Shown: piece after piece, positions 6,348-47,069 of the stretch | How the letters are laid out: every line of letters begins with the position of its first letter | Position numbering within the stretch: position 1 is the stretch's first letter | NCBI GenBank assembly: GCA_022826825.1 | Contig: JAJDUD010000028.1 | Span: forward strand, 62,001 to 126,000 | Direction: 5' to 3' | Source of the DNA: Acidobacteriota bacterium | Lineage (GTDB): Bacteria; Acidobacteriota; Vicinamibacteria; Marinacidobacterales; Marinacidobacteraceae | Length of the DNA stretch: 64,000 bases | Made by a program: the position numbers and the translations under genes | Notes under the pieces: model-generated | Seen by the model: the letters and a program-made list of their open reading frames with translations, nothing else | The model's database searches: none | Told to the model about the DNA's origin: nothing

Positions 6348-6414
6348 GAACTGCCGGGGCGCGGGCGCGCCGCGGGGCAGGGGAAGTGCGGGACCGGACG
6401 CGGCGGTTCGCGAA

Positions 6415-6795: not shown

Positions 6796-6954
6796 GACGG
6801 TTACTCCTTACGTTCGGCGACTCGGCAAGCATTCTAGGGCGCGCCACGACGCCCCACCCGCACCGCCGGAGCACAAGGCGGCGTTCCGGCGGAATAATCC
6901 CGCCATGGGCTGGCCCCGGGTAGCGGACGTTACGGACGCCGGAGGCGCCTCACG

Positions 6955-20300: not shown

Positions 20301-20518
20301 GGTTGAACCGGGCGCTCGCGGGAGCGTTCTCGGCCCCGCACAGCATCGCCTTCGACTACCCCAGTCCCCTCAGACTCGCTCACCGCCTGCGCGCGGCGCT
20401 CGACGGCGCCGAGGACGCCGAGACCGCCGGCACGGGGGACTCCGCGACGCCTCCGCGCCCCCTTTCCGTCGAGCAGTTCGCCGAGATGCTCGTGGACCTC
20501 GAGGACGAGATTGCCTGA
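11372..20518 (+). CDS. modular type I polyketide synthase: AT-ACP + KS-AT-DH-cMT-ER-KR-ACP
   Basis: 3,048 aa. Approximate domain order: KS-AT-type linker (20-100); AT1 (105-430, 'FPGQGVQW', 'GFSVGEWAA'); ACP1 (490-570, 'FELGMESL'); KS (590-1005, 'DTACSASLV', 'EAHGTGT', 'KTNVGHLE', all three catalytic positions intact); AT2 (1100-1450, 'GHSAGEIAA' and malonyl-type 'HAFH'); DH (1470-1730, 'HRVFGEVVGP'); C-methyltransferase (about 1850-2130, 'LEVGAGTGATT'); ER (2340-2645, 'HAGTGGVGHAA'); KR (2655-2900, 'GGLGGIG'); ACP2 ('FDLGMDSL', about 2970). It would load a starter, extend once with malonyl-CoA, methylate and fully reduce. AT1 has 'VAGH' where malonyl ATs have HAFH. The KR reads 'QANHAAAN', with His where the catalytic Tyr usually sits. 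The KS-AT-DH-cMT-ER-KR-ACP order resembles synthases of methyl-branched chains. Confidence 0.93.
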   Translation: MSVGARGGPGGHEDALGNRRGGRPLVLPLSAPSAGALRRLAGRYRSWVEDREAEGLPDLVWAATAGRSHSRHRAGLVFRGRAELLAGLARLEAGERGVQAAASPKVAFVFPGQGVQWVGMGRALYRSDAGVREVLDRCDAIFAEEVGERLLPVMFGEEGTDADLDAAEWAQPALYALACGLTAFWERVGLRPAAVLGFSVGEWAAAHAAGMVSLENGMRFAIRHGRLVASVPSGGGMGVVFLTGEEASRRIPELDASDVGTGVTTAADNGAHQLLTGPREMVAAVLSRLAGEGVRTALLSVRVAGHSALVDPILDGVEAAGDAMETRPGSALFVSCRTGKVIAGPEDLDGRYWRDQLRWPLRFAAAVGTLAELGVRVLVDLGPRGRTALTASGAWPVGEPAPLLVPTLAGPSAAAEDAAAALSRAWESGAPVSLASLLGEGGERPAAGRHRIDEPRSWMDEPGGDEPGGDKPGGDKPGTADGLGAPGADAPLAARTRELEALILREVQDLLRLEAPPPADRGFFELGMESLQVVALRDRLHRALGSAAGVSPAAIFSYPDAARLAAYLAERLGEWSRKPARSPGAPERAEEPIAVVGMSCRFPGGGGVEEFWRRLAGAENLVTRGRPDGALPGASGRESEMWGAYVPGVDRFDAGFFRTAPVEAELMDPQQRWLLEVTWEALEDAGIAPGSLKGSRTGVYAGMFASDYERLLAHAPPGLYVSTGSSFLAAVGRVAYTLGLQGPAVALDTACSASLVALHQAVSALRLGEVDLALAGGVNAILTWKLTEALTAAGMLAPDGRCKTFDASADGYVRGEGCGMVVLMRRSAARAGGHRILGLVLGSAVNQDGASAGFTAPNGLAQEGLIAEALERAAVDPGSVDYLEAHGTGTELGDPIELEAAASAYGEGRHADRPLLVGSVKTNVGHLEAAAGMAGVIKVLLAMREEEIPPQLHFREPNPRLDWGALPVSVVTESVPWAAVKERPRRAGVSSFGYSGTNAHVVMEAPPEPEPEEASPRQTRLLPISGRSAAAVQELAGRYREWLGKGRLRPSRLADAAWTAGVGRDHFASRSGVVFSTEAELREEIGALASAAEGRVAAEPQAGKVGFLFTGQGSQWAGMGRELYWREPVFREVLDRCEAVFRDERQGSPGAEAGLLAVMFGDAGGLDRTEWTQPALYALESALTALWASVGIRPEVVFGHSAGEIAAAASAGAFDVETGMRFATRRGALMGALPRRGKRAGGMLAVFASGETVATALAAARTSGGQALDLAADNGAHQVVSGPLDLLSEFGARLAQQGLRVERLPVSHAFHSALMEPVLNALEAAVGSAAAPPVSWVDGLSGGLLAELPDGAWWRRQAREPVRFAAAVRTLAELGVGILVEIGPRAVLGPMAGLTWPEAAGPVTVASLRGGGNGDFVSAVAQAYEAGVDISFAGLFAGERRRRISLPTYPFQRDRHWVEAPARRRSDGGHPLLGARRELRRGETAFEIELGAGDFPWLADHRVFGEVVGPAALYAAQAFAAAAELGRGPDASLTDVQLHRPLVLSEGSRSVQVLVDPGGRFEVASRAAGTEWELHAEGALGPGGGAGTRATIGELREGLSQLPVADFQARLAERGIVPGPAFRVLDEVWAGVDAALGAVALPTDAAVAGAATVLLDGCFQTLHATSALEDPGGQAWLPFGWESLWLAGPLPERFWCRARLRSRSAESRVADLEFHTPAGEALGGVRGFSLKRATRETLLEPRVDDLLYEVSWRDGPPAGRLAADWLRGPLAVTSALDAPAETLDAEGLDAEALAGLQRELERAAPGYALRALEELGWAPRRGERFGAEELRRRLKVTGDHRRLFGRLLRLLEDAGIVARGPEGDWLVTAGREDPAPERAAAADGAPERIERALLRRCGASLAEVLRGRADPLELLFGGVPGAPELYRDSAALRAANRLTADALGVAAREVPEGRRLRVLEVGAGTGATTAAVLAALPAQRTDYEFTDISAGFFADAERRFGGSGATFRTRPLDIERDPAAQGFPVHGYDVVLAANVLHATRDLAETLRHCRRLLAPAGLLVAVEGMRPQGWLDLTFGLLPGWWRFSDGIRTDSPLVGPDVWVRTLADAGYGEVSFAGEELGHAVILARGAARVEEESGLFVLAGSGAFADALGEELRTRKQAVVAGPAGAGREEWRSFFASLPGDAALRGVAHLDAVRDDGSEHTTEELRGEVEAVGAGALSLLQGMTDAGISASSGVWFVTRGAQVVERERKGALSGAALWGLASVAALEHGELKPRLLDLDPERVPPVGVVADELLHADEETRVAWRGGRRRVARLGRQPGRPGLPHGGGWRWAPAPDGTLERLRVELRPRTPLEAGEIRVAVEAAGVNFHDVMSGMGLADARPTFGAEMCGRVLEVGADVEEFPCGDRVVGFAPGSLAPEAVTRAELVAPAPAGFPAAALATVPVAYATASLAFEFAGLEAGQWVLIHAGTGGVGHAAIRLAQAAGLRVLATASAVKQAHLRSLGVEAAFDSRSTAFGDGVLEATGGSGVGMVLNSLTGEGFIETGLACLARGGSFVELGRRGIWSREAMEAARPDVRYSVLVVDRLIREEPARAGALLRSVVGWLDSGELAGLPCTSWPLAEAGAALTHLREARHLGKVVLRPAALATGRLRGDRSYLVTGGLGGIGLELARWLVERGAGAVVLNGRRAPGARAEASIAALRERGAELRVEVADVTDGAAVERLVEAIGPASGLPCLGGVIHNVGVLADAPLRDQDWPAFEQVLGPKVLGAWHLHRATRGMELELFVLFSSLAGVLGNPGQANHAAANAFLDQLALHRRALGLPGQAVQWGAWSGLGEAEEARGRIGARLAARGWGWMTPAAGLRALERLLREDAGSVAVASVDWPAFGRSGVPEPAFVAGLVEDRPSGGRAAASDLGSLLRGAPAAERERLALEFVSEEVRAVLGLAAAPPPEARFFDLGMDSLMAVELRNRLNRALAGAFSAPHSIAFDYPSPLRLAHRLRAALDGAEDAETAGTGDSATPPRPLSVEQFAEMLVDLEDEIA

Positions 20519-23500
20519 ACCGCCCCGGGCGCCGGACCCCGCCGCGGAGCTCACGCCGGAACTGGCCGGCCGGGTTCGCGCGCATCAGCAGCGAATCTCC
20601 CGGCGGCGCCGGCGGATCGCGGTCGTCGGAATGTCCTGCCGGTTCCCGGGGGGCGGGAGTGCGGCGGCGTTCTGGCGCTCGCTGGCGGCGGGCCGCAGCG
20701 CCATCACCGCCGGACGCGAGCCCGCGCCCGGCAGCGCTGGCTGGGGCGGCTACCTGGAGGAAGTGGACCGGCTGGATGCGGGGTTCTTCCGGATCGCTCC
20801 CGTGGAGGCGGAGCTGATGGATCCCCAGCAGCGGCTGCTCCTGGAGGTGAGCTGGGAGGCGCTCGAAGACGCGGGGATGGACCCGGGGCTGGAGGGCCGC
20901 CGCGGCGGGGTGTACGCCGGCATCGCGAGCGGCGACTTCCAGCGGCTGCTCGACGGCGAGCGCTCGGCCTACGCGCTGAGCGGGGGCAGCTTCGCGGCGG
21001 GGCCGGGGAGGGTCGCCTTCACGCTGGGATGGACGGGACCGGCGATCGCCGTGGACACGGCGTGCTCGTCGTCGCTGGTGGCGATCCACCAGGCGATGAC
21101 CGCGTTGCAGCGGGGCGAGGCCGACCTCGCGCTTGCCGGCGGAGTGAACGTGCTGCTCGACCCGAGCCGCATCGAAGCCTTGCAGGCGGCGGGGATGCTG
21201 GCGCCCGACGGCCGCTGCAAGGCATTCGATGCGGCGGCGGACGGGTTCGTGCGCGGCGAGGGCTGCGGAATGCTCGTCCTGAAGCGGCTGGGAGACGCCG
21301 AACGGGACGGAGACCGGATCCTGGGAGTGCTGCTCGGTTCGGCGGTGAACCAGGACGGGGCGAGCGCGGGGCTCACGGTCCCGAACGGCCCCGCGCAGGA
21401 GGCGGTGATCCGGGAGGCGCTCGGCAAGGCGGGGGTTCCGCCGGCCACTGTGGACTACCTGGAGGCGCACGGGACGGGGACGGAGCTCGGAGATCCCATC
21501 GAGGTGCGGGCGGCGGCGGCGGTGTACGGAGAGGGGCGGGAGGCGGATCGCCCGTTGCTGCTCGGTTCGGTGAAGACGAACGTCGGCCATCTGGAGTCGG
21601 CGGCGGGCGTCGCCGGATTGATGAAGGTGCTGCTGGCGTTCCGTCACGGACGGATCCCGCGCCAACTGCATTTCGAAACGCCGAACCCCCGGATCGAGTG
21701 GGACGCGCTCCCGGTGCGGGTGACGTCGGAGCCCGCGCGCTGGCCGGAGGTTGTCGGCCGCCCACCCCGCGCGGCGGTGAGCTCCTTCGCGCTCTTCGGG
21801 ACGAACGCCCACCTCGTCCTGGAGGGCTACGGGCGGCCCGGGGAGGAGGCCGGCGCCGCGGTTGCCGTCGCCCGGCCATCCGGGTCCGGCGAGGACTTCG
21901 CGCCGGCCCGGCGGGAGACGCGCGTCCTGCCGCTCGCGGCCCGGAGCGGAAAAGCCCTCCGGGACCTGGCGGGGCGGTACCGCGAGTGGCTGGACGAAGC
22001 GCGGGACGGGGCGCCCGAGGAGTGGAGTGCGGCGCGGCTCGCGGATGCGGCGTGGACGGCGGGCGTGGGGCGGAGCCACTTCCGGGTGCGCGCCGGGCTC
22101 GTCTTCCGAAACGCCGGGGAGCTGCGGGAGCAACTGGCGCGGCTCCTGGCCGGGGACGGCGAGCCGGAAGGGCCGGCCCCGCGCAAGGTGGCGTTCCTCT
22201 ACACCGGGCAGGGGAGCCAGTGGGCCGGAATGGGGCGCGAGCTGTACGAGCGGGAGCCGGCGGCGCGCGCGGTGCTGGACCGCTGCGAGGCGGTGTTCCG
22301 GGAGGAGCGGGGAGCGTCGCTGCTCCCGGTGATGTTCGGGCGTGACGAGGCCGGCGGAGACGTCGACCGGACGGAGTGGACGCAGCCGGCGCTGTTTGCG
22401 CTGTCGGCGGCGCTGACCGAGCTGTGGAAGGGAGTCGGGGTGGTTCCGGAGGCGGTGCTGGGGTACAGCGCGGGGGAGATCGGAGCCGCCTTCGCGGCGG
22501 GGGCCTTCGGGCTGGAGGACGGGATGCGCTTCGCTTCCCGTCGCGGGGCGCTCATGGGCTCGCTGCCCGCCGGCGGGGCGATGACGGCGGCGTTCGCGTC
22601 TCCGGAGCGGGTGCTGGCACTCGTGGAGGGGGCGCCCGGTTCCGGGACGGGTCCGGGGTTGTCGCTCGCGGCGGAGAACGGGACGCACTGCGTGGTCAGC
22701 GGCCCGGAGAGCCTGCTGTCGTTCGTGGAGGCGCGGCTCCGGGAGGACGGGATTCGGACGGAGCGGTTGCGGACGAGTCACGCCTTCCACAGCGCGCTGC
22801 TGGACCCGGTGCTCGGGGAGCTGGAGACGGCTGCGGAGGGGCTCGGCGGCAGCGTCGCCGGCCCGGTGTTGGTGAGCAACCTGACGGGCCGGGCGCTCGG
22901 GGCGGACGACGTGTTGGACGGGGCGTACTGGCGGCGGCAGGCGCGTTCGCCGGTGCGGTTCGCGGAGGGGGTCCGCTCGCTCGCTGCACTCGGGGCCGGG
23001 TTGCTGATCGAGGTCGGTCCGCGCCCGGTGCTCGGTCCGCTCGCGGCGCTCGGCTGGCCGGATGCGGCGCCGGGCGCCGCTCCGGCGGTGATCGCGACCC
23101 TGGGCGGCGGGACGGGCTTTGTGGAGGCGGTGTCCGAGGCCTACGGAGCCGGAGCCCGGCTGGACTTCCGCGGGCTCTTTGCCGGGGAGCGGCGTCGCCG
23201 CGTGGCGCTGCCGACCTATCCCTTCCAGCGGGACCGGTACTGGGTCCGGACGCGGGAACACCGGGGGAGCGGCGCCGAGCACCCGCTGCTCGGGTTCCGC
23301 CACGAACTCGCGAACGGCGGGGTGGCGTTCGAGGCCGCGTTGGGCGCCGACCACCCCGGCTGGCTCGGCGAGCACCGGCTCTTCGGCAGGACGGTGGCCC
23401 CGGTCTCGCTCTATGCCCTCCAGGCCGCCGCGGCGTTCCGCGCGCTGGCGGGGAAGGGCGCCGGGCCGGCCGGGACGCCCCCCGTGGGGGACCTGCGGGT

Positions 23501-25607
23501 GGAGCGGCCGCTGGTGCTGCCCGCGGAGGACGGCGAGCGGCTGGTGCAGTTTCTGGTGGGGCCCGGGTCCCCGGAGCGGAGCGGCCCCGAGGGCCGCCGC
23601 TTCGAGGTGTTCAGCCGGGGTTCGGCGAACGAGCCCTGGGTGCGGCACGCTACCGGCCGGCTGGGGCCGGGGCCGGAGGAAGCGCCGGCGGAACGGCTGG
23701 ACGGCGAGCGGCTGCGGGCGGAGTTGACACCGGTTCCGCTGGACGACCGCTCGCGCCGGCTGGCGGCTCGGGGAGTCGTCCGGCGGCCGGTGCTGGCCGG
23801 GTTGTGGTCGGGCGCCGCCGAGGCGTTGGGCGAGGCGTCCCTGCCCCCCGGACCGGTACGGAGGGATGACGGCGTCGAGCGGACGGCGCTGGACGCCGGG
23901 TTCGAGACGCTGGGCGCGCTGCTCGACGGGCCGGAGGAGGGGGAAGAAGACGGCGCTCTCTGGCTGCCGGTGGGCTGGGACCGGTTCTGGTTTCGGGGTG
24001 CGGCGGGAACGCGGATCTGGTGCCGCGCCCGGCTCGCCGGCGAGGGAGAAGGGGACGGGGCTCGCGAGGCCTCCGGGACCCGGCGGGCGGAGCTCCAGTT
24101 CTACGGGCCGGAGGGAGAGGCGCTCGGCGGGGTGCGCGGCCTCCGGCTGCGGCAGGCCGGCCGGTCGGCGGTGCTGCGGGCGGCGGACGAGGTGGAGGAC
24201 CTGCTGTACGAAGTGGTGTGGCGGGAAACCGCGGCGGCCGGCGGTGAGGGGCCGGTTGCGGCGGACTTCGTGCGGCGCCCGGAAGAGGCGGCCCTGAGCG
24301 TTCCCGGTTTCGGCGAGCTGCTCGCTGCGGAGGGACTCGATCTCCCGGGGTTCGCCGAGTGGAGCCGGGGTCTCGAGGAGGTGTCGCGGAGCTACGCGCT
24401 GCGGGCGCTCACGGAGCTGGGCTGGGAGCCCCGGGCAGAGGAGCGGGTGGAGCTGGAGTCGCTCCGTCGCCGGCTGGGGGTGGTGTCCGAGCACGGCGGC
24501 GTTCTGCGTCGGATGCTGGGACTGCTGGAGGACGGCGGAGTGCTGGCGCGGGAGGGGAGCGGCTGGCGGGTGACGGCGGGATCCGGGGACGGGCTTCCGG
24601 ACGGTTCCGGGCCGCCGGAGGAGGTCTTCGAGCGGGCGCTCGGCCGGAGTCCGGCGGGTTCGCTGGAGCTCGGGCTGCTGCGGCGTTGCGGAGAGTCGCT
24701 CGCGGAGGTGCTGCGGGGCCGGGCGGAGGCGCTGGAGCTTCTGTTCGGGGACGAGCCGGGCGCCGCGTCGCTCTACCGGAAGTCGCCGTGGCTGCGGACG
24801 ATGAACCGGATGGTGGCGGCGGCGGTGTCGGAGGCGGTGTCGGGTCTGCCGGGAGGGCGGCGGCTGCGGGTTGTGGAAGTGGGCGCGGGGACCGGCGGCA
24901 CGACGGAGTGGGTGCTGGGAGCGCTGCCGCGCGGCCGGACGGACTACGTCTATACGGACGTGTCGGCGGGGTTCTTCGGGGAGGCGGAGGAACGCTTTTC
25001 GAAGGAGGGGGTCCGGCTGGAGTTTCGGGTCCTGGACATCGAGCGGGACCCGGTGGAGCAAGGCTTCGGAGCGCACGGGTTCGATCTGGTGATCGCGGCG
25101 AACGTGCTGCATGCGACCCGTGATCTGGCGCAGTCGCTGGCGCACTGCCGCCGGCTGCTCGCGCCCTCGGGATTGCTGGTGGCGCTGGAGGCGACGGAGC
25201 CGCGGGGCTGGACGGATCTGACCTTCGGGCTGCTGCCGGGGTGGTGGCGTTTCGACGACGCATATCGTGACGGGCACCCGCTGGCTTCGCCGGAGGTATG
25301 GCGCCGGGCGGCGTCGGAAGCGGGGTATGGGGAGTGCCGGGTGCTGGACTCCGGGGCCCTCGTGGGGGAGGCGTTCGGGGTGCTCCTGGCGCGGGGTCCG
25401 GCGGCGGTGCGGGCGGAGCCGGGACTCTGGGCGCTCGGTCCGGGTGAGGGGGCGCTGGCCGGGGCGCTCGCCCGGGAGCTGGAGCTTCGCGGGCAGCGGG
25501 TGATCGCGGCTGACGGCGGGTCCGGCTGGGGGCGGGAGCGCTGGCGGGAGTTCTTCGCGGGGCTTCCGGCAGGGGTGTTGACGGGGGTGGTGCACCATAA
25601 GCGCTAA
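20511..25607 (+). CDS. type I polyketide synthase KS-AT-DH-cMT, truncated 3' by IS4-family insertion
   Basis: 1,698 aa, starting at a TTG that overlaps the upstream PKS stop by eight bases. The first 34 residues are charged and may be a docking segment. Domains: KS (35-440, 'DTACSSSLV', 'EAHGTGT', 'KTNVGHLE'); AT (560-905, 'FLYTGQGSQW', 'GYSAGEIGA', 'HAFH', malonyl type); DH (920-1220, 'HRLFGRTVAP'); C-methyltransferase (about 1450-1640, 'VEVGAGTGGTTEW'). The sequence then enters the linker before the reductive domains and stops. The last codons 'HHKR' and the stop come from the IS terminal repeat. Any ER/KR, the ACP and a release domain are absent, so as it stands this protein cannot carry or release a chain. 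Call it a broken gene unless the join is an assembly error. Confidence 0.9.
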   Translation: MPEPPRAPDPAAELTPELAGRVRAHQQRISRRRRRIAVVGMSCRFPGGGSAAAFWRSLAAGRSAITAGREPAPGSAGWGGYLEEVDRLDAGFFRIAPVEAELMDPQQRLLLEVSWEALEDAGMDPGLEGRRGGVYAGIASGDFQRLLDGERSAYALSGGSFAAGPGRVAFTLGWTGPAIAVDTACSSSLVAIHQAMTALQRGEADLALAGGVNVLLDPSRIEALQAAGMLAPDGRCKAFDAAADGFVRGEGCGMLVLKRLGDAERDGDRILGVLLGSAVNQDGASAGLTVPNGPAQEAVIREALGKAGVPPATVDYLEAHGTGTELGDPIEVRAAAAVYGEGREADRPLLLGSVKTNVGHLESAAGVAGLMKVLLAFRHGRIPRQLHFETPNPRIEWDALPVRVTSEPARWPEVVGRPPRAAVSSFALFGTNAHLVLEGYGRPGEEAGAAVAVARPSGSGEDFAPARRETRVLPLAARSGKALRDLAGRYREWLDEARDGAPEEWSAARLADAAWTAGVGRSHFRVRAGLVFRNAGELREQLARLLAGDGEPEGPAPRKVAFLYTGQGSQWAGMGRELYEREPAARAVLDRCEAVFREERGASLLPVMFGRDEAGGDVDRTEWTQPALFALSAALTELWKGVGVVPEAVLGYSAGEIGAAFAAGAFGLEDGMRFASRRGALMGSLPAGGAMTAAFASPERVLALVEGAPGSGTGPGLSLAAENGTHCVVSGPESLLSFVEARLREDGIRTERLRTSHAFHSALLDPVLGELETAAEGLGGSVAGPVLVSNLTGRALGADDVLDGAYWRRQARSPVRFAEGVRSLAALGAGLLIEVGPRPVLGPLAALGWPDAAPGAAPAVIATLGGGTGFVEAVSEAYGAGARLDFRGLFAGERRRRVALPTYPFQRDRYWVRTREHRGSGAEHPLLGFRHELANGGVAFEAALGADHPGWLGEHRLFGRTVAPVSLYALQAAAAFRALAGKGAGPAGTPPVGDLRVERPLVLPAEDGERLVQFLVGPGSPERSGPEGRRFEVFSRGSANEPWVRHATGRLGPGPEEAPAERLDGERLRAELTPVPLDDRSRRLAARGVVRRPVLAGLWSGAAEALGEASLPPGPVRRDDGVERTALDAGFETLGALLDGPEEGEEDGALWLPVGWDRFWFRGAAGTRIWCRARLAGEGEGDGAREASGTRRAELQFYGPEGEALGGVRGLRLRQAGRSAVLRAADEVEDLLYEVVWRETAAAGGEGPVAADFVRRPEEAALSVPGFGELLAAEGLDLPGFAEWSRGLEEVSRSYALRALTELGWEPRAEERVELESLRRRLGVVSEHGGVLRRMLGLLEDGGVLAREGSGWRVTAGSGDGLPDGSGPPEEVFERALGRSPAGSLELGLLRRCGESLAEVLRGRAEALELLFGDEPGAASLYRKSPWLRTMNRMVAAAVSEAVSGLPGGRRLRVVEVGAGTGGTTEWVLGALPRGRTDYVYTDVSAGFFGEAEERFSKEGVRLEFRVLDIERDPVEQGFGAHGFDLVIAANVLHATRDLAQSLAHCRRLLAPSGLLVALEATEPRGWTDLTFGLLPGWWRFDDAYRDGHPLASPEVWRRAASEAGYGECRVLDSGALVGEAFGVLLARGPAAVRAEPGLWALGPGEGALAGALARELELRGQRVIAADGGSGWGRERWREFFAGLPAGVLTGVVHHKR

Positions 25608-25615
25608 CTTATTTT
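25596..25615 (+). repeat. IS left terminal inverted repeat
   Basis: CATAAGCGCTAACTTATTTT. Its partner at 26933-26952 differs by one base. The two bases outside (AC) also match in inverted orientation, so the true tip could lie up to two bases further out. Confidence 0.85.
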
Positions 25616-25776
25616 GCTACTCAAATCGGCGGGCGAGTTGGTTCAGGCGTCTTCGAGGGGCCTCGGCAAGTGCGCGGGAGATCCGGGACCAATCCCGGAT
25701 CATGCGGGAGAGGCCCACCGGAGGCCGAATCGCGCTGGTGACCTCGGTGAGCACAAAGCCGAACTCCCGCCAGAGG

Positions 25777-26877
25777 CTACGCGGCCGGCGTCGCCGCCAG
25801 GTCGTGTCCCCAGGGGGAAACGGACTCGGCGTGGCGGATGATCTTCTCTACCAGCAGCGCCATGAACAGCTTCCCGTAGAGCCATGCCCGGGCGCTGTCC
25901 TCGTCGTGTTTGGGCAGGTGACCGAGTTGCGCCAGCGATTTGAACCGCTTGAAGACCAGTTCCACCTGCCAACGAACCCGATACCACTCCAGCACCTCCC
26001 GGGCGGAAAACTCCGCCTCGGGGAAGGTGGTGAACACGATGACGAACCGGGCGAACTCCAGAGTCTCCGGCTTGACCTGTTGCCCCTTCCGGCTGGCGAC
26101 TCGGCGAATCTTCCGGTGCGCCTGCCGGATGGCCTCCTGACTCTTGCGCACCGCGCACACCCGGCCCAACACCGTCGCCCCCTCCCTCTCCACAACCCGT
26201 GCCTCCCAGGACCCGACCTGATCGACGCGTCGCAGCGAACTCACCCGCGCCAGCAGGTCCAGCGGCTCTCCCGCCGGCGTCGCCAACACCAAGGCCTGGG
26301 TGTTGACCCGTACCGTCACATAGCCGCCCGCCGCCGCCACATGCACGATCCCCGACGCCAACGAGTATGCCCGGTCCGCCAGTACCAGGTCTCCGGCCCG
26401 GATCGGAAACTGCGTCAGCGACTCTCCGCTCCCCGGACCCTCCGTCCCGGTCAGCTTGAAGAAGTCGCACGACAGCGATGGCAACCGCACGGCGTAGTGC
26501 AGCCTCCACAACGAGCCCGACTTCCCCGGCTCCTTCACCGTCGTCGCATCCATCACCCGGGCTTCCAGGCCCCCCGCCGGCAGGTCCCGCCGTTCCCCCT
26601 CACGGAACAACTCCACGCACAGCCGCCGAAGCCACTCCCCGCTCTTCCGAACCCGCTTCAACAGCGCCACGTCCGACAGCTCCGCCAATCCCGCCCGCCG
26701 TGCCCGCAAAACCGTCTCCCGCAACGAGTGGCCGCAGCCCAAATGGAGCAGCAGCACCCGAAGCAGGTTCTCCTCCGACTTGTCCTTCCGCAGTCCCTTC
26801 AGGGCGCCCGTCTCCCGCGCCAGCGCCCGCCAGTTCCCCGGAAAAAACGACTTCAAAAGCTCCCAGTCCTCCGGCAT
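25777..26877 (-). CDS. IS4-family DDE transposase
   Basis: 366 aa. The IS4 signature Y-x2-R-x3-E-x6-K is exact in 'YRVRWQVELVFKRFK' (about residues 296-310). The first catalytic Asp lies in 'VMDATTVKEPG' (about 109) and the second in 'LADRAYSL' (about 168). Length is normal for the family, and the reading frame is open from ATG to stop, so the enzyme looks intact and the element potentially active. The C-terminus 'SVSPWGHDLAATPAA' follows the usual helical tail. The gene occupies most of the IS and is transcribed against the PKS. Confidence 0.92.
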   Translation of the reverse strand: MPEDWELLKSFFPGNWRALARETGALKGLRKDKSEENLLRVLLLHLGCGHSLRETVLRARRAGLAELSDVALLKRVRKSGEWLRRLCVELFREGERRDLPAGGLEARVMDATTVKEPGKSGSLWRLHYAVRLPSLSCDFFKLTGTEGPGSGESLTQFPIRAGDLVLADRAYSLASGIVHVAAAGGYVTVRVNTQALVLATPAGEPLDLLARVSSLRRVDQVGSWEARVVEREGATVLGRVCAVRKSQEAIRQAHRKIRRVASRKGQQVKPETLEFARFVIVFTTFPEAEFSAREVLEWYRVRWQVELVFKRFKSLAQLGHLPKHDEDSARAWLYGKLFMALLVEKIIRHAESVSPWGHDLAATPAA

Positions 26878-26932
26878 CCCGGTGTCCCTCCCCGCAGTAT
26901 GCGGAACACCCGGAAAGATGCAACGGTAACAG

Positions 26933-26952
26933 AAAACAAGTTAGCGCTTATG
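26933..26952 (-). repeat. IS right terminal inverted repeat
   Basis: On the minus strand CATAAGCGCTAACTTGTTTT, 19 of 20 identical to the left end. Its outward TAA supplies the stop of the truncated lipoprotein gene. Confidence 0.85.
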
Positions 26953-27145
26953 GTTGGAACCCCCCGAGTTCGATCGGTTGTTCCGCGATCTTCCCGGCCT
27001 CCGCCGGGGGCGCTATGAGGCTGCCGGGTTCGATCTCAGGGGGTGGAGCGGGCGCCGGGGTGGTCGGGGTGGCGGGCTGGCCGTCGACGCCGCCGCCGCA
27101 GCCGGCCAGGAAGACGGCGACCAGGGCCGGGGCGAGGAATCGCAC
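26948..27145 (-). pseudogene. lipoprotein gene truncated by the IS (paralogue of the 377-aa lipoprotein)
   Basis: About 65 aa remain from the GTG at 27145 (a TTG at 27157, overlapping the upstream stop as TTGA, is an alternative). The N-terminus 'MRFLAPALVAVFLAGCGGG' is a lipoprotein signal almost identical to that of the full-length gene at 28963-30096. The following Pro-rich linker and 'APPAEAGKIAEQPIELGGF' align with 'APPAEAGKVADEGLELSGL' there. After that the frame runs into the IS end and stops. The body of the protein, about 310 residues if like its paralogue, is missing. It is the last remnant of the minus-strand secreted-protein operon on this side of the IS. Confidence 0.85.
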
Positions 27146-27153
27146 GGTGGCGC

Positions 27154-28962: not shown

Positions 28963-30096
28963 CTACTCCGGAATCCGGACCTCGCGCGGGGCCGCGGGGT
29001 CCCGGATCGTGGTGCCCCCGATGATGAGTTCCAGGCCGGCAGGGTGCGGACGCGCGTCCCAATTGGCGCAGCCCGGAGTGCCGGGGTTCGCGGAATCCGT
29101 CTCGTTGGGATTCAGGTAGGCGCGGGTAACCGGAACCCAGCCCTCCCCCGGACGGCGTGCCCGGGCGCGGCGGAAGGCCGCGGCTCTGATGTTCTGGTGG
29201 AGGCAGGTGTTGCCTTGGCGGGCGAAGTCCTCGACGAACGCGCTGGTGGAACGACGGATGTGGGGCTTGCCTCGGAGGGTGCCGATGAAACGCTGCTCGC
29301 CGGCCACGATGTCCGTCACCCACGCGGACACCAGCTCCCGCCCGTCCTCCGTATCCTCCATTTCGAGCCGGAACCGATAGGGGCGGTCCACCTCCCACGG
29401 GTAGTCCACCCGGCACTGGCTCCCGTGTCCTTCGTGCCCGAAGGTGGTGCAGAACGCCCTCTCCCCCGCGGCGACGACATCCGCATCGACGCCGTCCCGG
29501 TCCCACAGGGAGAACTGCAACTGATCGTTGAACTGGCTGCCGCCCCGTTGGAAACCGATGTACCCGGTGCTCCAGACCACTGCGGCGTAGAAGGTCTTGC
29601 CGATCTTCACCAGCGGAGTCATGTCGATGGAGTAGCCCGTCGCCTCCTCATTCACGATCTGAAGAGCGAGCGCGAACCACGGGGGCCGCGCGGGCCAGAC
29701 GCTCAACGTCTGGTACTCGATCATCCGCTCCTCTCCCGCTTCCGAGAGCGTCAGGACCAGTTTCCCGACCCCCGGAAACCCCGGGATCCACGTCCCCGTG
29801 AGGCGTCCCTCGGCGTCGGTTCTCCCCTGCGCCGGGAAGACCCAGCCCGAGTTCTCGTCGGTTGTCCACTCGTAGGCCGTGCCGGGCGGCAGGCCGGAGA
29901 GTTCCAGCCCCTCGTCCGCGACCTTCCCGGCCTCCGCCGGGGGCGCGACCAAGTCGTCGGGGTCGATCTCGGGCTCGGGGGGAGCAGGTTCCGGGGCCGG
30001 CGGTGGCGTGGTGGGGGGCGCGACGGGTTGCCCGCCGGTGTCGCCGCCGCAGCCGGCCAGGAGGGCGGCGAGCAGGGCCGGGGAGAGGAAGCGCAT
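28963..30096 (-). CDS. lipoprotein with possible DUF3472-like domain
   Basis: 377 aa from the ATG that overlaps the upstream stop (TGATG). The lipobox 'LLAGCGG' is at residues 12-18, then a Pro-rich linker to about residue 42. About 50-105 is a small beta domain ('GTWIPGFPGVGKLVLTLSEAG'). About 115-290 reads like DUF3472: 'GYIGFQRGGSQFNDQLQFSL' followed by 'WDRDGVDADVV' and 'YPWEVDRPYRFRLEMED'. That family assignment is from memory of the pattern. Cysteines at 'FCTTF', 'SQCRV', 'NTCLH' and 'PGCANW' could form two disulfides. Likely anchored to a membrane and facing the periplasm or surface. Its truncated paralogue lies at the IS border. Confidence 0.65.
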   Translation of the reverse strand: MRFLSPALLAALLAGCGGDTGGQPVAPPTTPPPAPEPAPPEPEIDPDDLVAPPAEAGKVADEGLELSGLPPGTAYEWTTDENSGWVFPAQGRTDAEGRLTGTWIPGFPGVGKLVLTLSEAGEERMIEYQTLSVWPARPPWFALALQIVNEEATGYSIDMTPLVKIGKTFYAAVVWSTGYIGFQRGGSQFNDQLQFSLWDRDGVDADVVAAGERAFCTTFGHEGHGSQCRVDYPWEVDRPYRFRLEMEDTEDGRELVSAWVTDIVAGEQRFIGTLRGKPHIRRSTSAFVEDFARQGNTCLHQNIRAAAFRRARARRPGEGWVPVTRAYLNPNETDSANPGTPGCANWDARPHPAGLELIIGGTTIRDPAAPREVRIPE

Positions 30097-33676: not shown

Positions 33677-33946
33677 CGCCGGGGGCCGCACCGCGGTCCC
33701 GGGCCGTGCCCGGTTCCGGGAACGAGCCCGCCCGTTCCATCCTGGCGCCATCGCGCTCGCTTTCGGACTGCGTCACCGGCCGGTCGCAGGCGGTTGGCCG
33801 ACACTCGGCGCCGGCTACCCAGCCCGGTTTCGTTCGAGGCTCACCATCATGGTTTCCCGTGAGAATCGCCGTCCGGACCTGTCCACCGCGAGGAGCGCAC
33901 TCCAGCAATCTGGCAGACTTGGTTCCGATTCCCGGGAGAAACTCCG

Positions 33947-35560
33947 ATGCTTCGCCTCTTGACCCCGGCGGCTTCCGCGGTCGTCCTGATCGCGGCCCTG
34001 CCGCTCTCCGGCTGCGGTGAGTTCGGCGCTCGCTTCGACGAGGACCGCCTCCTCGCGCACATCGCCACGCTGTCCTCGGACGAGTTCGGCGGACGGGCGC
34101 CCGCCTCTCCCGGCGAGGAGAAGACCGTCGCCTACCTGACGGGCGCGTTCGAGGAACTGGGGCTCGAACCCGGCAACCCGGACGGCACCTGGGTCCAGAC
34201 GGTGCCTCTCGTGGGTTCCACCGCGATCACCATGCGCGCCTCTTCCGAACCCGGCGGGGACTGGGAACCGGGGGTGGACTTCGTGGCCTGGACGCAGCGG
34301 GTGGTGCCGGAGATCCACGCCTCCGGGCAACTGCTCTTCGTCGGCTACGGCGTCCAGGCGCCGGAGTACCGCTGGGATGACTTCGGGGACACCGACCTCG
34401 CCGGCAAGATCCTGGTCGTGCTGGTGAACGATCCGCCGGGAGAGCACCACTTCGGCGGCGACGCGATGACCTACTACGGCCGCTGGACCTACAAGTTCGA
34501 GAAAGCGGCCGCGATGGGGGCGCTCGGTGCGCTGATCGTCCACGAGACCGGTCCCGCGGGATATCCCTGGGAAGTGGTGAGCGGATCCTGGACGGGCGAG
34601 CAGTTCGCGCTGCGCACTCCCGGCGGCAACCTCGACCGGCTGGAGGTCGAGGGGTGGATCTCGCGGGAACAGGCGGTGTCGCTCTTCGGCGCCGCGGGGC
34701 TGGACTTCGAGGTGGCGCGCCGGGCGGCGACACATCCGGACTTCACCCCGATACCGCTCGAGCTCACCGCCAGCTTCACGCTCGAGACCTCGCACCGCGA
34801 GATCGACTCGGACAACGTGGTGGCCCGTATCCCCGGATCGGAAGCACCCGGCGAGACGGTCATCTACACCGCGCACTGGGACCATCTCGGAACCGTCCTC
34901 GGGATGGAAGGCGACAACATCTACAACGGCGCCTACGACAACGCCACCGGCACGACCGGCCTGCTGGCGCTGGCGAGGGCCTTCATCGCCGAGGGGGCGC
35001 CGCGCCGCAGCATCCTGTTCCTCGCGGTGACCGCCGAGGAAAAGGGGTTGCTCGGCTCCCGCCACTATGCCCGGAACCCGCTCTATCCGGCGGCGGAGAC
35101 GGTGGCGGCCCTCAACATGGACGGCATGAACGTCTGGGGCCGCACCAGCGACATCACCGTGGTGGGCCTCGGCCAGTCCCAACTCGATGACATCGCCGGG
35201 GAGGTGGCGGCGGAGGTGGGCCGCGTCCTGCGCCCGGACCCCGAGCCGGAGAAGGGCTTCTACTACCGCTCCGACCACTTCGAGTTCGCCAAGGTGGGGA
35301 TTCCGGCGTTCTACCCCGACGGCGGGGTGGACTTCATCGGCAAGCCTCCCGGCTTCGGCATGGAGGCGCGCGCCACCTACGTTGCGGAGGCGTACCACAA
35401 GCCGGGGGACGAGGTGGAGGACTGGTACGACCTCTCCGGCATGGTGGACGACCTCGAGTTCCTCTACCGGATGGGCCGCCGCCTCGCCGATTCGACGGAC
35501 TGGCCGGAGTGGAGCGACACCAGCGAGTTCCGCGCCGCGCGGCAAGCCAGTCGCCCGTAG
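33947..35560 (+). CDS. M28-family metallopeptidase lipoprotein with PA-type insert
   Basis: 537 aa. Lipoprotein signal ends 'LPLSGCG' (about residue 24). Residues about 90-250 contain a protease-associated insert ('QLLFVGYGVQAPEYRWDDFG', 'GKILVVLVNDPPG'). The M28 catalytic domain follows with the dinuclear zinc ligands in order: His in 'TAHWDHLG', bridging Asp in 'NGAYDNATGT', the catalytic Glu-Glu pair in 'VTAEEKGLLGS', Asp in 'LNMDGMNV' and His in 'YRSDHFEFAK'. All are present. Such enzymes are secreted or anchored aminopeptidases or carboxypeptidases. Start supported by GGGAG a few bases upstream of ATG. The gap 33677-33946 before it shows no gene. Confidence 0.93.
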   Translation: MLRLLTPAASAVVLIAALPLSGCGEFGARFDEDRLLAHIATLSSDEFGGRAPASPGEEKTVAYLTGAFEELGLEPGNPDGTWVQTVPLVGSTAITMRASSEPGGDWEPGVDFVAWTQRVVPEIHASGQLLFVGYGVQAPEYRWDDFGDTDLAGKILVVLVNDPPGEHHFGGDAMTYYGRWTYKFEKAAAMGALGALIVHETGPAGYPWEVVSGSWTGEQFALRTPGGNLDRLEVEGWISREQAVSLFGAAGLDFEVARRAATHPDFTPIPLELTASFTLETSHREIDSDNVVARIPGSEAPGETVIYTAHWDHLGTVLGMEGDNIYNGAYDNATGTTGLLALARAFIAEGAPRRSILFLAVTAEEKGLLGSRHYARNPLYPAAETVAALNMDGMNVWGRTSDITVVGLGQSQLDDIAGEVAAEVGRVLRPDPEPEKGFYYRSDHFEFAKVGIPAFYPDGGVDFIGKPPGFGMEARATYVAEAYHKPGDEVEDWYDLSGMVDDLEFLYRMGRRLADSTDWPEWSDTSEFRAARQASRP

Positions 35561-35681
35561 CAGTCCCCATCGCGCTGATCGAGCGGTCCGGGCGGAGAAA
35601 GACGGTGCCGCGCCCGACGGGCTCGGAAGAAGGCAAGACGGTGCCGGGCGACGCCCGACGGTATGGGCGGGCAGCAGTCAG

Positions 35682-35708
35682 GGTAGAACCGTTACACTTC
35701 TTTCTACC
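35682..35708. promoter_or_regulatory. inverted repeat upstream of vapBC, putative operator
   Basis: GGTAGAA, 13 bases, TTCTACC: a perfect 7-base inverted repeat in a locally AT-richer patch ending 18 bases before the vapB ATG. Type II antitoxins usually bind palindromes overlapping their own promoter, so this is the natural candidate for autoregulation. Confidence 0.55.
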
Positions 35709-35726
35709 TACGAAATTCAGCACGTC

Positions 35727-35984
35727 ATGAGTCTGAACATCAAGAACGAAGAGACCTGCCGGCTCGCTCGTGAACTCGCCCACCTGACTGGTGAGACCAT
35801 GACCGGCGCGATCACGGTGGCGGTCCGGGAACGTCTTGGCAGGGAGGAGCGCCAGCGGGGGATGGAGGAGCGCCTGCGTCGCATGCGTGCGATCGCGGAT
35901 CACTGTGCCAGCTTGATGGGGCCTGGCCCTTCCGCCGTGGAACACGGAGATTTCCTCTACGACGAACGCGGGCTTCCGAAGTGA
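35727..35984 (+). CDS. vapB: VapB-type antitoxin (Rv0623/PSK family)
   Basis: 85 aa from the ATG of 'MSLNIKNEETCRLARELA'. The N-terminal pattern 'LNIKNEET...LARELAHLTGETMTGAITVAVRERL' (here given in parts) is the DNA-binding segment of the Rv0623-like VapB family. The acidic and Tyr/Asp-containing tail 'FLYDERGLPK' is the toxin-neutralising end. It binds and inhibits the neighbouring VapC and represses the operon. The stop overlaps the toxin's GTG by four bases. The longer track ORF upstream is a shadow of the M28 gene. Confidence 0.9.
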   Translation: MSLNIKNEETCRLARELAHLTGETMTGAITVAVRERLGREERQRGMEERLRRMRAIADHCASLMGPGPSAVEHGDFLYDERGLPK

Positions 35985-36367
35985 TTGTCGACAGTTCGGC
36001 GCTTCTCGCGATCCTGTTTCGCGAGCCAGACGCGCCGCGCTACGAACGAGCGATCGCCAGCGCACGCCGTTGCCGGATGTCGGTCGCTGGTGCGCTCGAA
36101 ACGACCATGGTTCTCGAGAGTCGCGGCGGTGTGAGCGCCGGACGGGATCTGGAGCGCTACCTTGAAGAGACCGGCATCCGGTTGGAGCCGGTGACCGTTG
36201 AGCACCTGGAAGCGGCTCGGGAGGCGTGGCGGCGATTCGGCAAGGGCAATCACCCGGCAGGGCTGAACTTCGGAGACTGTTTCGCGTACGCGCTGGCGGA
36301 GATGTCCCGGGAGCCCCTCCTCTTCAAGGGCGAGGACTTCTCCCGGACCGACGTCGCTGTGGCGTGA
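35981..36367 (+). CDS. vapC: VapC-type PIN-domain ribonuclease toxin
   Basis: 128 aa, GTG start inside the GTGA overlap with vapB. PIN acidic residues are visible: Asp in 'MIVDSSALLAILF' (residue 4), Glu in 'SVAGALETTMVLESR' (about 42), and Asp in 'LNFGDCFAYALAEM' (about 98), followed by 'PLLFKGEDFSRTDV' with a further Asp. These bind Mg2+ for endoribonuclease cleavage, usually of tRNA or rRNA. Full length for the family and apparently intact. Paired with vapB as a standard toxin-antitoxin module. Confidence 0.92.
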   Translation: MIVDSSALLAILFREPDAPRYERAIASARRCRMSVAGALETTMVLESRGGVSAGRDLERYLEETGIRLEPVTVEHLEAAREAWRRFGKGNHPAGLNFGDCFAYALAEMSREPLLFKGEDFSRTDVAVA

Positions 36368-36394
36368 CCCGGCGCGGAGCGTGCGCCGGACCGT

Positions 36395-37111
36395 TCAGGT
36401 GTCGGAGGCCCGTCGCCGCCACCAGTCGCTGAGCAGGAACGGCGACAGCACCACGAAGAACATCGTGAAGCCGACCACCGCCAGGATCGGCAGGTACCAC
36501 GGCCACGGCGCGGCGAAGAAGGGTGACACGGTGCCCGGCGGGGCCGCGGAGAGCCACATGAAGTTGGCGCCGAGCAGGAGATTGGCCACGGCCACGAACG
36601 CGGCGAAGCCAGCCAGATAGCCGAACGCCCGGAACATTCCGCGGAGCGTCGGCCGCATGCCCAGGCCCCAGGTCGCGAAGAGCACCCCGGTCACGATGCC
36701 CGAGTGGGCGACGAAGTACTGGAAGAAGCGGTACTGGGGGAAGTCCACCGCGAGTCCACCGGGCGTGAGGACCGCGTTCGCGGCCCCGACGAGGCCCCAG
36801 AAGTAGACGATCTCGTAGGTCTTCTCGCTGCGGAAGAGTAGGGTCCAGGTGGTCAGGAGCACCGCCACCCCGCAGACGTGGAGCGGCATGTGGTTCCGCA
36901 CCCAGCCGTCGAAACCGATCTGGCTGATCCGCACCGCCCAGTAGGTGAACTCGTTCGCGAGCAGCATCCCGGCGAGGCACCGGGCGATGACCTTCGGCGC
37001 CTCGCCGCCGACCCGCCGGGCGATGACCGCCAGGGCGGCCGGCAGCGCGAGCGTCAGCGTCATCGCCGTGAGATGCGGCGCGGCGAAGGTCGTGAAGCCG
37101 CCGACTGGCAC
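36395..37111 (-). CDS. TIGR02206/YwaF-family integral membrane protein
   Basis: 238 aa with about six or seven transmembrane helices. Motifs 'PLHVCGVAVLLT' and 'YFWGLVGAANAVLTPG' match the YwaF / TIGR02206 family, as does the repeated aromatic pattern 'YRFFQYFVAHSGIV'. Members are of unknown function and found in many bacteria. The C-terminus 'SDWWRRRASDT' is cytoplasmic by the positive-inside rule. It converges with vapC, with 27 bases between. The next gene upstream is more than 140 bases away, so it likely has its own promoter. Confidence 0.82.
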   Translation of the reverse strand: MPVGGFTTFAAPHLTAMTLTLALPAALAVIARRVGGEAPKVIARCLAGMLLANEFTYWAVRISQIGFDGWVRNHMPLHVCGVAVLLTTWTLLFRSEKTYEIVYFWGLVGAANAVLTPGGLAVDFPQYRFFQYFVAHSGIVTGVLFATWGLGMRPTLRGMFRAFGYLAGFAAFVAVANLLLGANFMWLSAAPPGTVSPFFAAPWPWYLPILAVVGFTMFFVVLSPFLLSDWWRRRASDT

Positions 37112-37260
37112 GAGTCCAGTCTATTCGGGGCGCAGCGCCTCCGGGGCTCGCTCCGAGTCGCGACCACTGCGCGATTGAGGCCGAACACGGCCGTTGGCCG
37201 TGATCGAGAACCGGAAAGCCATTGCGTACGTCATTGCCGGCGGGAAATGCTCTTGGCGGA

Positions 37261-38112
37261 TCACGGTCCTAGGTGGAGCCTGCCGGGAATGAGCCCGAGA
37301 GAGTCCTGGAAGAGGACGAGGCCCACCAAGAGAAGGGTGCCGAGTCCCCAGAGCGCAATCACCACTGCGAAGGAACGGCGCCGGCTGATGCCGAGGGCGA
37401 TGGAGAACCCGATCCCGGCGAGCACCACCTGCCAGGCCAGCTGAAGATCCAGCCGGGACGTGATCGCCCCAATGGCGCTGTCGATCTCCAGACCGAACCA
37501 GTTGGCGACGCTGGTCCCAGGAAGCGTTCCGGCCCGTTCCAGCGGCACCGGGTAGGAAAGCCAGGCAACGGCTCCGGCGAGGAGCATGCCCGCCACGTTC
37601 GCCGGCCAGTTTGCGTGCAGCAACACGGACAGGATCGACCGGAAGCTGCCCTTGTCGCCGAGGACGCCGAACGCCAACAGGAAGAACGCGGCGGCAGTCA
37701 GGGGAAGGACAACGGCGCTCAGCGCGGTCATCACGGGTATGAACGCGTTGGTCAGCGCGAGAGTCTTCCTTGCCGTCTCTTGCAGCTCCTGGCGATCAGC
37801 GTCCGAAAGCTCGCGGGCAAACTGGCTGGTCGCCAGCCGGTCCTCGACACTCGCCAGAATCTGAGCGTCCGCATCCAAAGCGAAGATGGACGCGGTCGCC
37901 GCGATCGCGCCGGTCAGGGCGGTAGCGATCAGGGCCGCGGCGATGGTCGGCGAGCGGGCCAGTTCGCCGAAGGTCCGGGACGGGGAATGAAAGACGGAAA
38001 TGAGGTGCCGCAGGCCAAAATCCCGCCCTTTGGCGGGGCGGCCCTCCGCGCCCGGGGTTCTCGCCCGGCGGGGTTCAACTCCCCGCTGGTCATCGCTAGT
38101 CAGCTCACTCAT
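37261..38112 (-). CDS. Yip1-like multi-pass membrane protein
   Basis: 283 aa. A polar N-terminus of about 45 residues is followed by 'FHSPSRTFGELARSPTIAA', the usual lead-in of bacterial Yip1-domain proteins (PF04893), then five hydrophobic segments (about 57-77, 120-145, 155-180, 225-245, 250-270). No catalytic residues seen. Role unknown; bacterial Yip1 proteins are envelope proteins without settled function. The start is close to the end of the PQQ dehydrogenase gene on the same strand (about 120 bases apart). Confidence 0.68.
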   Translation of the reverse strand: MSELTSDDQRGVEPRRARTPGAEGRPAKGRDFGLRHLISVFHSPSRTFGELARSPTIAAALIATALTGAIAATASIFALDADAQILASVEDRLATSQFARELSDADRQELQETARKTLALTNAFIPVMTALSAVVLPLTAAAFFLLAFGVLGDKGSFRSILSVLLHANWPANVAGMLLAGAVAWLSYPVPLERAGTLPGTSVANWFGLEIDSAIGAITSRLDLQLAWQVVLAGIGFSIALGISRRRSFAVVIALWGLGTLLLVGLVLFQDSLGLIPGRLHLGP

Positions 38113-38235
38113 CAGCGATCGTGCCTGCGCCTGAGGAGGCTACCAGCGGGGGACGCGCGCCAACGCTCGGTGCCACTCGGGGTTTTCTGCCGGATGCACG
38201 TCCACGTTGGGCGCGCGGTGCGGCTTTCGGTTGAC

Positions 38236-40395
38236 TCAGGGGCGGTCGCGCGACATCAGGTAGGCGTGGACCTGCCAGATCTCGTCGGCCGAGAGCAGTT
38301 CCCCGAAGGCGGGCATGTTGTTCTCTTCGACGCCCTCTGCCACCACTTCGAAGAAGCGGCGGTGCGTCAGCCGGCTCCGGAAGACGTTCTCGCCCGCACC
38401 GGCGCCGGCCAGATGGCATCCGACGCAGGCGGAGCGATAGATGCGGGCGCCGGCCTCGATCGCCGCCTCGTCGCCCAGCAGCGGATTGGCTTCCTCGACC
38501 GCGGGTGACTCCGGAGGGGCTTCCGGAGGCGTGGCGGACAGCGGTTCCGCGCCCTCCGTCGCCGGGAAGCCGTACCCCGGGAGCACCCGGCCGCCCAGCG
38601 TGGCCCCCGGCTCGCCCACCCGGGGCAGTCCTCCCGGCAGGGTGACCAGGTTCGTTCCCGCCTGTTCGCGCACCGGACGGGCGCCGTCCAGTGCGAACAC
38701 CCACAGGTTCCCCGCCTTCGGCTCGGTGTAGTAGAAGGTCATGTCGCCGCCGATCCCTCCGGAGGGGACCGCGACGTACTGGGTGCCGTCGAGTTCGTAG
38801 GTGATGGGGCTGCCGATGATCCCCGAGCCGGTCTGGAACTGCCACAGCACCCCGCCGCTCCCGGCGTCGATGGCCATGAAGTAGCCGCGCATGTCGCCGG
38901 TGAAGACCAGTCCGGTGGAGGTGGCCACCGCGCCCGCCCAGAACGGGGCGGGGCTCACCACGCGCCACAGCACCTCGCGGTTCACCACGTCGAACCCGAC
39001 GAAGTTCCCGGGGTTCTCGCTCGTCAGGTACTGCTGGTAGTCCGCGCCCAGGTACCACTGCCCGAGGGTCGGGGGTTCGAACTCGTCCTCCGCCCAGAAC
39101 CGGTAGCCCATCGCCCACTGGTTGGACATGAAGTAGAGCGCCTGGCGTTCCGGGTTGTAGGCCAGCGGCTGCCAGTCGATCGCGCCCTCCAGGCTCGGGA
39201 TGATCGGCCCCACCTCGGGCCCTCCCGACTGCGCCAGCATGTCCGGATTCACGGCCGGACGGCCGGTCTCGGGGTCCAGTCCGAAGGCCCAGTTGATTCC
39301 CGGGACGATGGGGTCGCCGTAGAGGAACCGGCCGTTCGTCCGGTCCAGCGCGTAGAAGAAGCCGTTCTTGTCGTGGTGGAAGAGCGCCTTCACCGGCCCG
39401 TGATCGGGCAGGGTGACGTCGGCGAGCACGGGGGTGCTGACCGCGTCGTAGTCCCAGCAGTCCCAGGGGGTGTACTGGAAGCCCCAGCGAATGCTCCCGT
39501 CGTCGGCGTCGATGGCGATGGTGGCCGCGGTCCACTGGTTGTCGCCCTTCCGCACCTGGCAGTTCCAGGGGGCCGCGTTGCCGGTGTTCCAGTAAACGAG
39601 GTTCAGCTCGGGATCGAAGACCCCGGTGGTCCAGGTGGGCCCGCCGCCGTTCTTCCAGGTATCGCCCGGCCAGGTCTCGTTCCCGGGTTCGCCGGGTCCC
39701 GGGATGGTGTAGGTCGTCCAGCGGTGCTCCCCGGTGGCGGCGTCGTACGCCTTCACGAAGCCGCGCACCCCGTACTCGCCGCCGGCCATGCCGGTCAGGA
39801 CCATCCCGTTCACCACCAGCGGCGCGCCGGTGATGCTGTAGCCGTGCTCCCAGTCGGCGACCTCGACCTCCCAGGCCACCTCGCCGGTGTCCTTGTGGAG
39901 GGCCACCAGCCGGGCGTCCATGGTGCCGACGAACACGAGATCCCCGAAGAGCGCCACCCCGCGGTTGATGGACCCGCAGCAGAAGACGCGCTCCACCTCG
40001 ACGCCGATCTCGGGGTCGTAGCCCCAGAGCTTCCCACCGGTGCGGGCGTCGACCGCGAAGACGCGGGACTCGTCGGCGGACAGGTAGATCACGCCGTCGT
40101 GGAGCAGCGGCGTGGCCTCGAGACCGCGGTTTGCGCCGCCGGTCGCGAACACCCAGACCGGATCGAGATCCCCCACGTTCTCCGGCGTGATCTGGTCCAG
40201 TTCCACGTAGCGGTGGGCGTGGTAGTCCCGGCCGTACATGAGCCACTCGGACGTGTTTCCGGCTGCGGCCTCGAGGTCCGCCGTGGTGACGCCCTGCGCC
40301 CGAACGGGCTGGGACCAGCAAAGCCCTATGGCGAGCAGCAGGAACACAGCCCGCGTCCCCACGCCACCTCCGGCGCTGTTCGACATTTCTCGCAC
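38236..40395 (-). CDS. PQQ-dependent quinohemoprotein alcohol dehydrogenase
   Basis: 719 aa. Signal peptide 'AVFLLLAIGLCWSQPVRAQG', exported to the periplasm. An eight-bladed PQQ propeller fills about 40-600: 'WLMYGRDYHAHRYV' at the start, the vicinal disulfide 'FCCGSINRG' that stacks on PQQ, and 'PWDCWDYDAVS' in the catalytic Asp region. The C-terminal cytochrome c domain (about 625-715) has 'ACVGCHLAG' (CxxCH) and a likely Met ligand in 'NNMPAFGE'. It oxidises alcohols and passes electrons to its own heme. GTG 40395 or ATG 40386 could be the start. Pqq synthesis genes are not in the window. Confidence 0.93.
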   Translation of the reverse strand: MREMSNSAGGGVGTRAVFLLLAIGLCWSQPVRAQGVTTADLEAAAGNTSEWLMYGRDYHAHRYVELDQITPENVGDLDPVWVFATGGANRGLEATPLLHDGVIYLSADESRVFAVDARTGGKLWGYDPEIGVEVERVFCCGSINRGVALFGDLVFVGTMDARLVALHKDTGEVAWEVEVADWEHGYSITGAPLVVNGMVLTGMAGGEYGVRGFVKAYDAATGEHRWTTYTIPGPGEPGNETWPGDTWKNGGGPTWTTGVFDPELNLVYWNTGNAAPWNCQVRKGDNQWTAATIAIDADDGSIRWGFQYTPWDCWDYDAVSTPVLADVTLPDHGPVKALFHHDKNGFFYALDRTNGRFLYGDPIVPGINWAFGLDPETGRPAVNPDMLAQSGGPEVGPIIPSLEGAIDWQPLAYNPERQALYFMSNQWAMGYRFWAEDEFEPPTLGQWYLGADYQQYLTSENPGNFVGFDVVNREVLWRVVSPAPFWAGAVATSTGLVFTGDMRGYFMAIDAGSGGVLWQFQTGSGIIGSPITYELDGTQYVAVPSGGIGGDMTFYYTEPKAGNLWVFALDGARPVREQAGTNLVTLPGGLPRVGEPGATLGGRVLPGYGFPATEGAEPLSATPPEAPPESPAVEEANPLLGDEAAIEAGARIYRSACVGCHLAGAGAGENVFRSRLTHRRFFEVVAEGVEENNMPAFGELLSADEIWQVHAYLMSRDRP

Positions 40396-40535
40396 GGAAA
40401 CGAACCTCGGCCCGATTCTGTCAGGAGCGGCCGGTCATCGCTTTCCCGCCGTACTCGTGGGGCCTGTCGGCGGGTTCTTTCTCAGCGATGGCGGTGGCGC
40501 GCCCGAACGATGCAGACCACGCCCTTACGTAAGGG

Positions 40536-42077: not shown

Positions 42078-42086
42078 GGTTCCGGC

Positions 42087-42329
42087 TTATTCCTGGTACT
42101 CGCGGTCCAGGGTCTCGTCGTCCTCGCGGTCCTTCGCGAAGAGCGTCAGGAAGGTGAAGAACACCGCCGCGATCATCAGCACCAGCCAGAACATGGAGAA
42201 CGGCATCCCGAACACCAGCGGGTGGATGCCCGCGATCCACGGGTAGAGCGGCCAGATGCTGAGCAGGAGGACCGCGAAGGCGACCCAGAAGCCGATCCGG
42301 TGGCGCCGGTGAAAGCCCAGGCTGCTCAC
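42087..42329 (-). CDS. DUF3311-type small membrane protein, SSS partner
   Basis: 80 aa from the GTG in the GTGA overlap with the glutaminyl cyclase stop. Two transmembrane helices: 'IGFWVAFAVLLLSIWPLYPW' and 'FSMFWLVLMIAAVFFTFL', then a charged cytoplasmic tail 'AKDREDDETLDREYQE'. Small two-helix proteins of this type are regularly encoded just before SSS transporters and are thought to help their assembly or activity. The 395-aa track ORF covering it starts in the wrong frame of the cyclase gene. Confidence 0.8.
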   Translation of the reverse strand: MSSLGFHRRHRIGFWVAFAVLLLSIWPLYPWIAGIHPLVFGMPFSMFWLVLMIAAVFFTFLTLFAKDREDDETLDREYQE

Positions 42330-43192: not shown

Positions 43193-43272
43193 GCGGGGAA
43201 TGATGGCATGCCCGCCCCCCTCCGCGACCGGTCGCCTCGCCGTTCCGCCGGGCGGCGTATCCTCCGCGCACC

Positions 43273-44601: not shown

Positions 44602-44686
44602 GGCAGGGACCGCCGGTCTCCCGGCCGGCACGCGCGGTGCTCCGCGCCGCGCACGTCCCATCGCTGCTCAGGCAAGGTGGCGCGCC

Positions 44687-47054: not shown

Positions 47055-47069
47055 GGGACGGCGCGATCC

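Follow-up and report, generated by a model that had tools for sequence, protein, structure and literature searches.

A PKS-IS4-lipoprotein junction in an Acidobacteriota draft genome as a probable assembly chimera through a multi-copy insertion sequence

The window analysed here is a stretch of 64,000 nucleotides, bases 62001-126000 of contig C27 (130,178 bp), in the draft genome of an Acidobacteriota bacterium (77 contigs, 3.98 Mb). Within it, a PKS gene and a DUF3472 lipoprotein gene are both cut by the same IS4-family insertion sequence (IS). As judged from the assembled sequence, this PKS-IS-lipoprotein junction is very probably a chimera made by the assembly through a recent, multi-copy IS, and two separate IS insertions have most likely been spliced into one. 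Each flank of the IS has a proper partner elsewhere in the genome, the right one on contig C12 and the left one on contig C40.

Flanks of the element and their partners

The IS occupies positions 25596..26952 (minus strand, 1,357 bp). To its left, the PKS gene (20511..25607, plus strand), which comprises KS-AT-DH-MT and the start of the next reductase part, runs out as GTG GTG CAC CAT AAG CGC TAA, with the stop codon lying in the left IS end. To its right, the N-terminal piece of the lipoprotein (26953..27150, minus strand; about 65 aa, lipobox LAGC) ends in ELGGFQP followed by a stop codon in the right IS end. The 11-mers next to the IS, GGGTGGTGCAC on the left (25585..25595, plus strand) and GTTGGAACCCC on the right (26953..26963, plus strand), match at just 4 of 11 positions. 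The first-pass annotation had read the junction in this way, with an IS4 element in which both genes end and with outer bases that are not repeated, and these descriptions hold. A duplicate of GGGTGGTGCAC is expected next to the true right end of this IS copy, and the bin does not contain it. Further along the window, a DUF3472 paralogue that is 54% identical to the interrupted lipoprotein is encoded at 28969..29895 (minus strand). Genes of this type occur as tandem paralogues in the genus, as in G005:C10 and G007:C28, which have two copies apiece (L069, L070).

The partner of the right target half was found on C12, and not on the PKS side. The left flank on C12 ends in GTTGGAACCCC, the same 11 bp with which the right flank in the window begins, and of the eight left-right flank pairings this is the only one with 11/11 agreement (at this composition, the chance of such a match is about 1.4e-6 for each comparison). 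When C12 and the right flank are joined with the 11-mer kept once, the lipoprotein becomes a single open frame of 383 aa, with the lipobox and the DUF3472 domain. It had been proposed that about 310 residues of the lipoprotein were missing and might flank another copy of the IS; the number was near, the actual remainder being about 320 aa, and it lies beside an IS end exactly as expected, at C12:139-1107.

In four same-genus genomes (G005:C62, G006:C29, G007:C40, G002:C103), the window-right genes (33863..52564) run into the C12 genes. Those of C12 from prfB to 4732-5283 adjoin those of the window from 33863-35557 onward, with order and orientation kept, about 75-97% identity and no PKS. Furthermore, the C12 gene at 2430-3524 lies beside homologues of the lipoprotein paralogue of the window in three relatives. 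The only copy of prfB in the genome is on C12, the second match being a 40%-identical release-factor paralogue. By the 11-bp repeat, the reading frame and synteny, the right flank and C12 are the two sides of one IS insertion. GC content was also tried as a test of flank partners and set aside: C12 (0.679) agrees with window-right (0.683-0.690), and since C40 (0.694) does not separate from them, this match is weakly supportive.

For the left flank, the window-left genes (218..8220), up to the kynureninase-like gene at 6898-8220, adjoin the C40 genes from 261452 to 246486 in four same-genus genomes without this PKS (G001:C164, G002:C34, G004:C191, G006:C31), with order and orientation kept and mostly 67-98% identity. 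The end of C40 itself lies inside an open PKS frame of 420 aa that encodes KR-ACP on the matching strand, 97 bp short of the KR domain, and the contig carries further PKS genes beyond that frame. Synteny and domain order suggest that the PKS cluster is an insert between about 8.2 kb of the window and about 261.5 kb of C40, so that the far end of the cluster would not be lost. The claim of the first-pass annotation that the PKS tail was lost is therefore not supported, as C40 carries a PKS end with KR-ACP and synteny gives each flank of the IS another partner. The right flank of the PKS was also looked for beside an IS end in the bin, which has only six such ends, and PKS sequence follows none of them. 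With a contig of the right IS end and then PKS absent from the bin, it is synteny together with the order of the domains that links the PKS gene to C40.

Comparison with the homologue G004:C8 puts the gap between the IS and the end of C40 at about 120 codons or more, and one or two more modules (C35, C36) could lie in it. C35, a 3.5-kb PKS fragment, was considered as the direct tail and rejected, since it starts near a KR end and has, over its start, 79.5% identity with G007:C74, which makes it an internal module. Assignment of the tail from PKS similarity alone was likewise given up: the homologues are about 51-64% identical and thus non-decisive, and synteny decided. In G006, the 233-kb contig with the PKS-locus region is not the one that carries the window-right region, which means that the two regions do not lie close together in that genome.

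The PKS cluster (window 8220-25595 plus C40:262587-276143, L033) is lineage-specific, and its flanks are directly adjacent in four same-genus genomes. Its G-C skew at third codon positions is +0.23, against about -0.1 in the neighbouring genes, which suggests that the cluster came from elsewhere or has an unusual codon usage. As a test of the junction, GC skew was uninformative, being flat outside the PKS.

Copies of the element and origin of the junction

In a search of the genome, the IS was complete only in the window; four other contigs break off 137-138 bp into it, with left ends on C9, C18 and C12 and a right end on C8. The terminal overlap between C12 and C18 is exactly 141 bp, and C9 shares 140 bp with either. 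A de Bruijn assembler with k of about 141 that breaks contigs at a repeat would leave ends of this kind; a k of 141 is the default maximum of MEGAHIT, which was presumably the assembler of this genome. All four contigs (C8, C9, C12, C18) thus end in the repeat at an overlap of assembler length. Four left flanks are known, which means at least four IS copies, and the flank on C8 is unlike every known left flank, which makes five copies likely; the copy number is at least four and probably five. C9 and C8 were considered as the two sides of one insertion and rejected, their 11-mers being reverse complements and not direct repeats. The flanks of the window copy diverge from the others in the bases nearest the IS (CAC vs CCC on the left, GTT vs GGG on the right), and this early divergence may be the reason that only these two flanks remained joined to the repeat path.

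The junction would then have arisen as follows. Several recent, near-identical copies of the IS would be present in the genome. One would lie inside the PKS gene of the inserted cluster, with window-left on its left and C40 on the far side, and another inside the DUF3472 lipoprotein gene, with C12 on its left and window-right on its right. Each would be an ordinary insertion with an 11-bp target duplication, which is seen for the lipoprotein copy and would apply by analogy to the PKS copy. A short-read graph would collapse all copies into one 1.36-kb path, and the assembler would keep the route that enters at the left of the first copy and leaves at the right of the second, while the other flanks would be cut off 137-138 bp inside the IS. 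Reads would be expected to contradict the join. The junction resembles collapsed-repeat contigs of short-read metagenomes in having an identical multi-copy IS longer than a read, k-length shared ends inside the IS and flanks from different loci, and nothing distinguishes it from known chimeric contigs of this kind.

The mismatch of the flanks is in itself no proof of a chimera, since two of three related IS copies in a Rhodothermales MAG also have no matching flanks. Such flanks are the classical result of homologous recombination between IS copies, and a real inversion or translocation could have joined PKS-left to window-right, leaving the reciprocal C12-IS-PKS-right arrangement in the chromosome, perhaps in part of the population. 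This would retain both C12 and C40, as observed, and would find a parallel in the mismatched flanks of that other MAG. However, the collapsed-repeat contig ends account for the join with no need for recombination, short reads assembled across a 1.36-kb repeat with at least four copies carry no linkage information, and the ancestral order is intact in the relatives on both sides. We regard this event as unlikely, and it is similarly improbable that the join is real in part of the population, through a recent recombination that moved the interrupted PKS gene beside the lipoprotein locus; were it real, one PKS assembly line would be split over two chromosomal places. A deletion between two IS copies, taking out the tail of the PKS together with all DNA as far as the missing part of the lipoprotein, would also yield the observed junction without a direct repeat. 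In that case the intervening DNA should be absent from the genome, but C12 is present with the only prfB and the missing lipoprotein part, and so is C40, which carries a PKS end as well as the genes that ancestrally lay to the right of the PKS locus. A deletion is excluded on these grounds unless C12 and C40 derive from another strain, and we give it hardly any credence. The first-pass annotation had left the choice between a deletion or recombination and an assembler join through a multi-copy IS; the assembler join is strongly favoured, and simple deletion does not survive the presence of C12 and C40.

Taken as an assembly chimera, the junction is most likely an ordinary artefact and no real feature. 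The PKS cluster is to be read from 8.2-25.6 kb of the window toward C40 and not as ending at the IS, and the remainder of the lipoprotein is on C12 and not lost, so that the main use of the result is as a warning to annotators. If the flank junctions are real, each gene is still interrupted by an IS copy, and the PKS module and the lipoprotein may therefore be inactive. The case also indicates that a chimeric MAG contig can be recognised without recourse to reads, from an 11-bp target duplication combined with synteny in the genus.

The mismatched copies of the Rhodothermales MAG (CATQHT010000003.1) are L134 and L135; the right flank of L134 nearly repeats that of L136, and genuine recombination between IS copies or insertion into repeated sequence are both possible there. 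In the window, a dispersed repeat family with up to 94-96% identity occurs at 44686-44820, 48302-48340 and 56736-56846. Its further members are at L011:4143-4279, L009:1111-1229, L007:1-500 and L007:10735-11360. The family thus recurs near the ends of C27, C8 and C9, and it may likewise lead contigs to break.

Classification of the element and its target sites

The IS is bounded by terminal inverted repeats CATAAGCGCTAACTT, identical over 15/15 bp and at 19/20 over 20 bp. Its sole ORF (25777..26877, minus strand) encodes a transposase of 366 aa with a DDE domain, which scores 145 bits against NCBIfam NF033592 (IS4 family; cut-off 115) and 55.1 bits against Pfam DDE_Tnp_1 (cut-off 23). The Y(2)R(3)E(6)K motif, by which the IS4 family is defined in PMC2266710, is present as YRVRWQVELVFKRFK at residue 299. 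The target duplication is about one helix turn, 11 bp between C12 and window-right, and homologous IS copies in other genomes have intact 11-bp duplications at six sites.

In the same review, the IS231 subgroup is characterised by target specificity, repeats of 10-12 bp and CAT ends, listed as CAT-------AA--TAA, and Table 1 gives it a size range of 1450-5400 bp (PMC2266710). Against the eight bases listed there, the left end of our element, CATAAGCGCTAACTTAT, agrees at 7/8 and the right end at 6/8. The element is like this subgroup in having the YREK motif, a transposase encoded by a single ORF, CAT ends that show AA at positions 11-12, duplications of 11 bp and GGG/CCC-type target sites. It is unlike it in its size (1,357 bp vs 1,450-5,400 bp), in a host that is not Bacillus and in the one or two listed bases that its ends do not share. 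Since 1,357 bp is outside the IS231 range, the element is filed only as IS4 family, IS231-like.

A search of seven other same-genus genomes did not find the transposase, and it was found in only one same-family genome, at 66% identity. This distribution agrees with a recent arrival of the IS. Target 11-mers of the form GGGN5CCC are found at three of the five sites in the genome (C9, C18, C8), while 0.2% is expected per site at this composition; together with the six homologous sites, they support an 11-bp duplication at each insertion. IS231 has the same type of target preference. The copies at the end of C9 and the start of C8 (L007:12299, L009:137) sit in near-identical GC-rich hairpins GGGGGTTCGGGGGCTGCGCCC, of which no intact, IS-free copies were found in a search for them. 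The IS of a same-family relative (L077) is also within a GC-rich inverted repeat, and the element may prefer hairpin or terminator-like targets.
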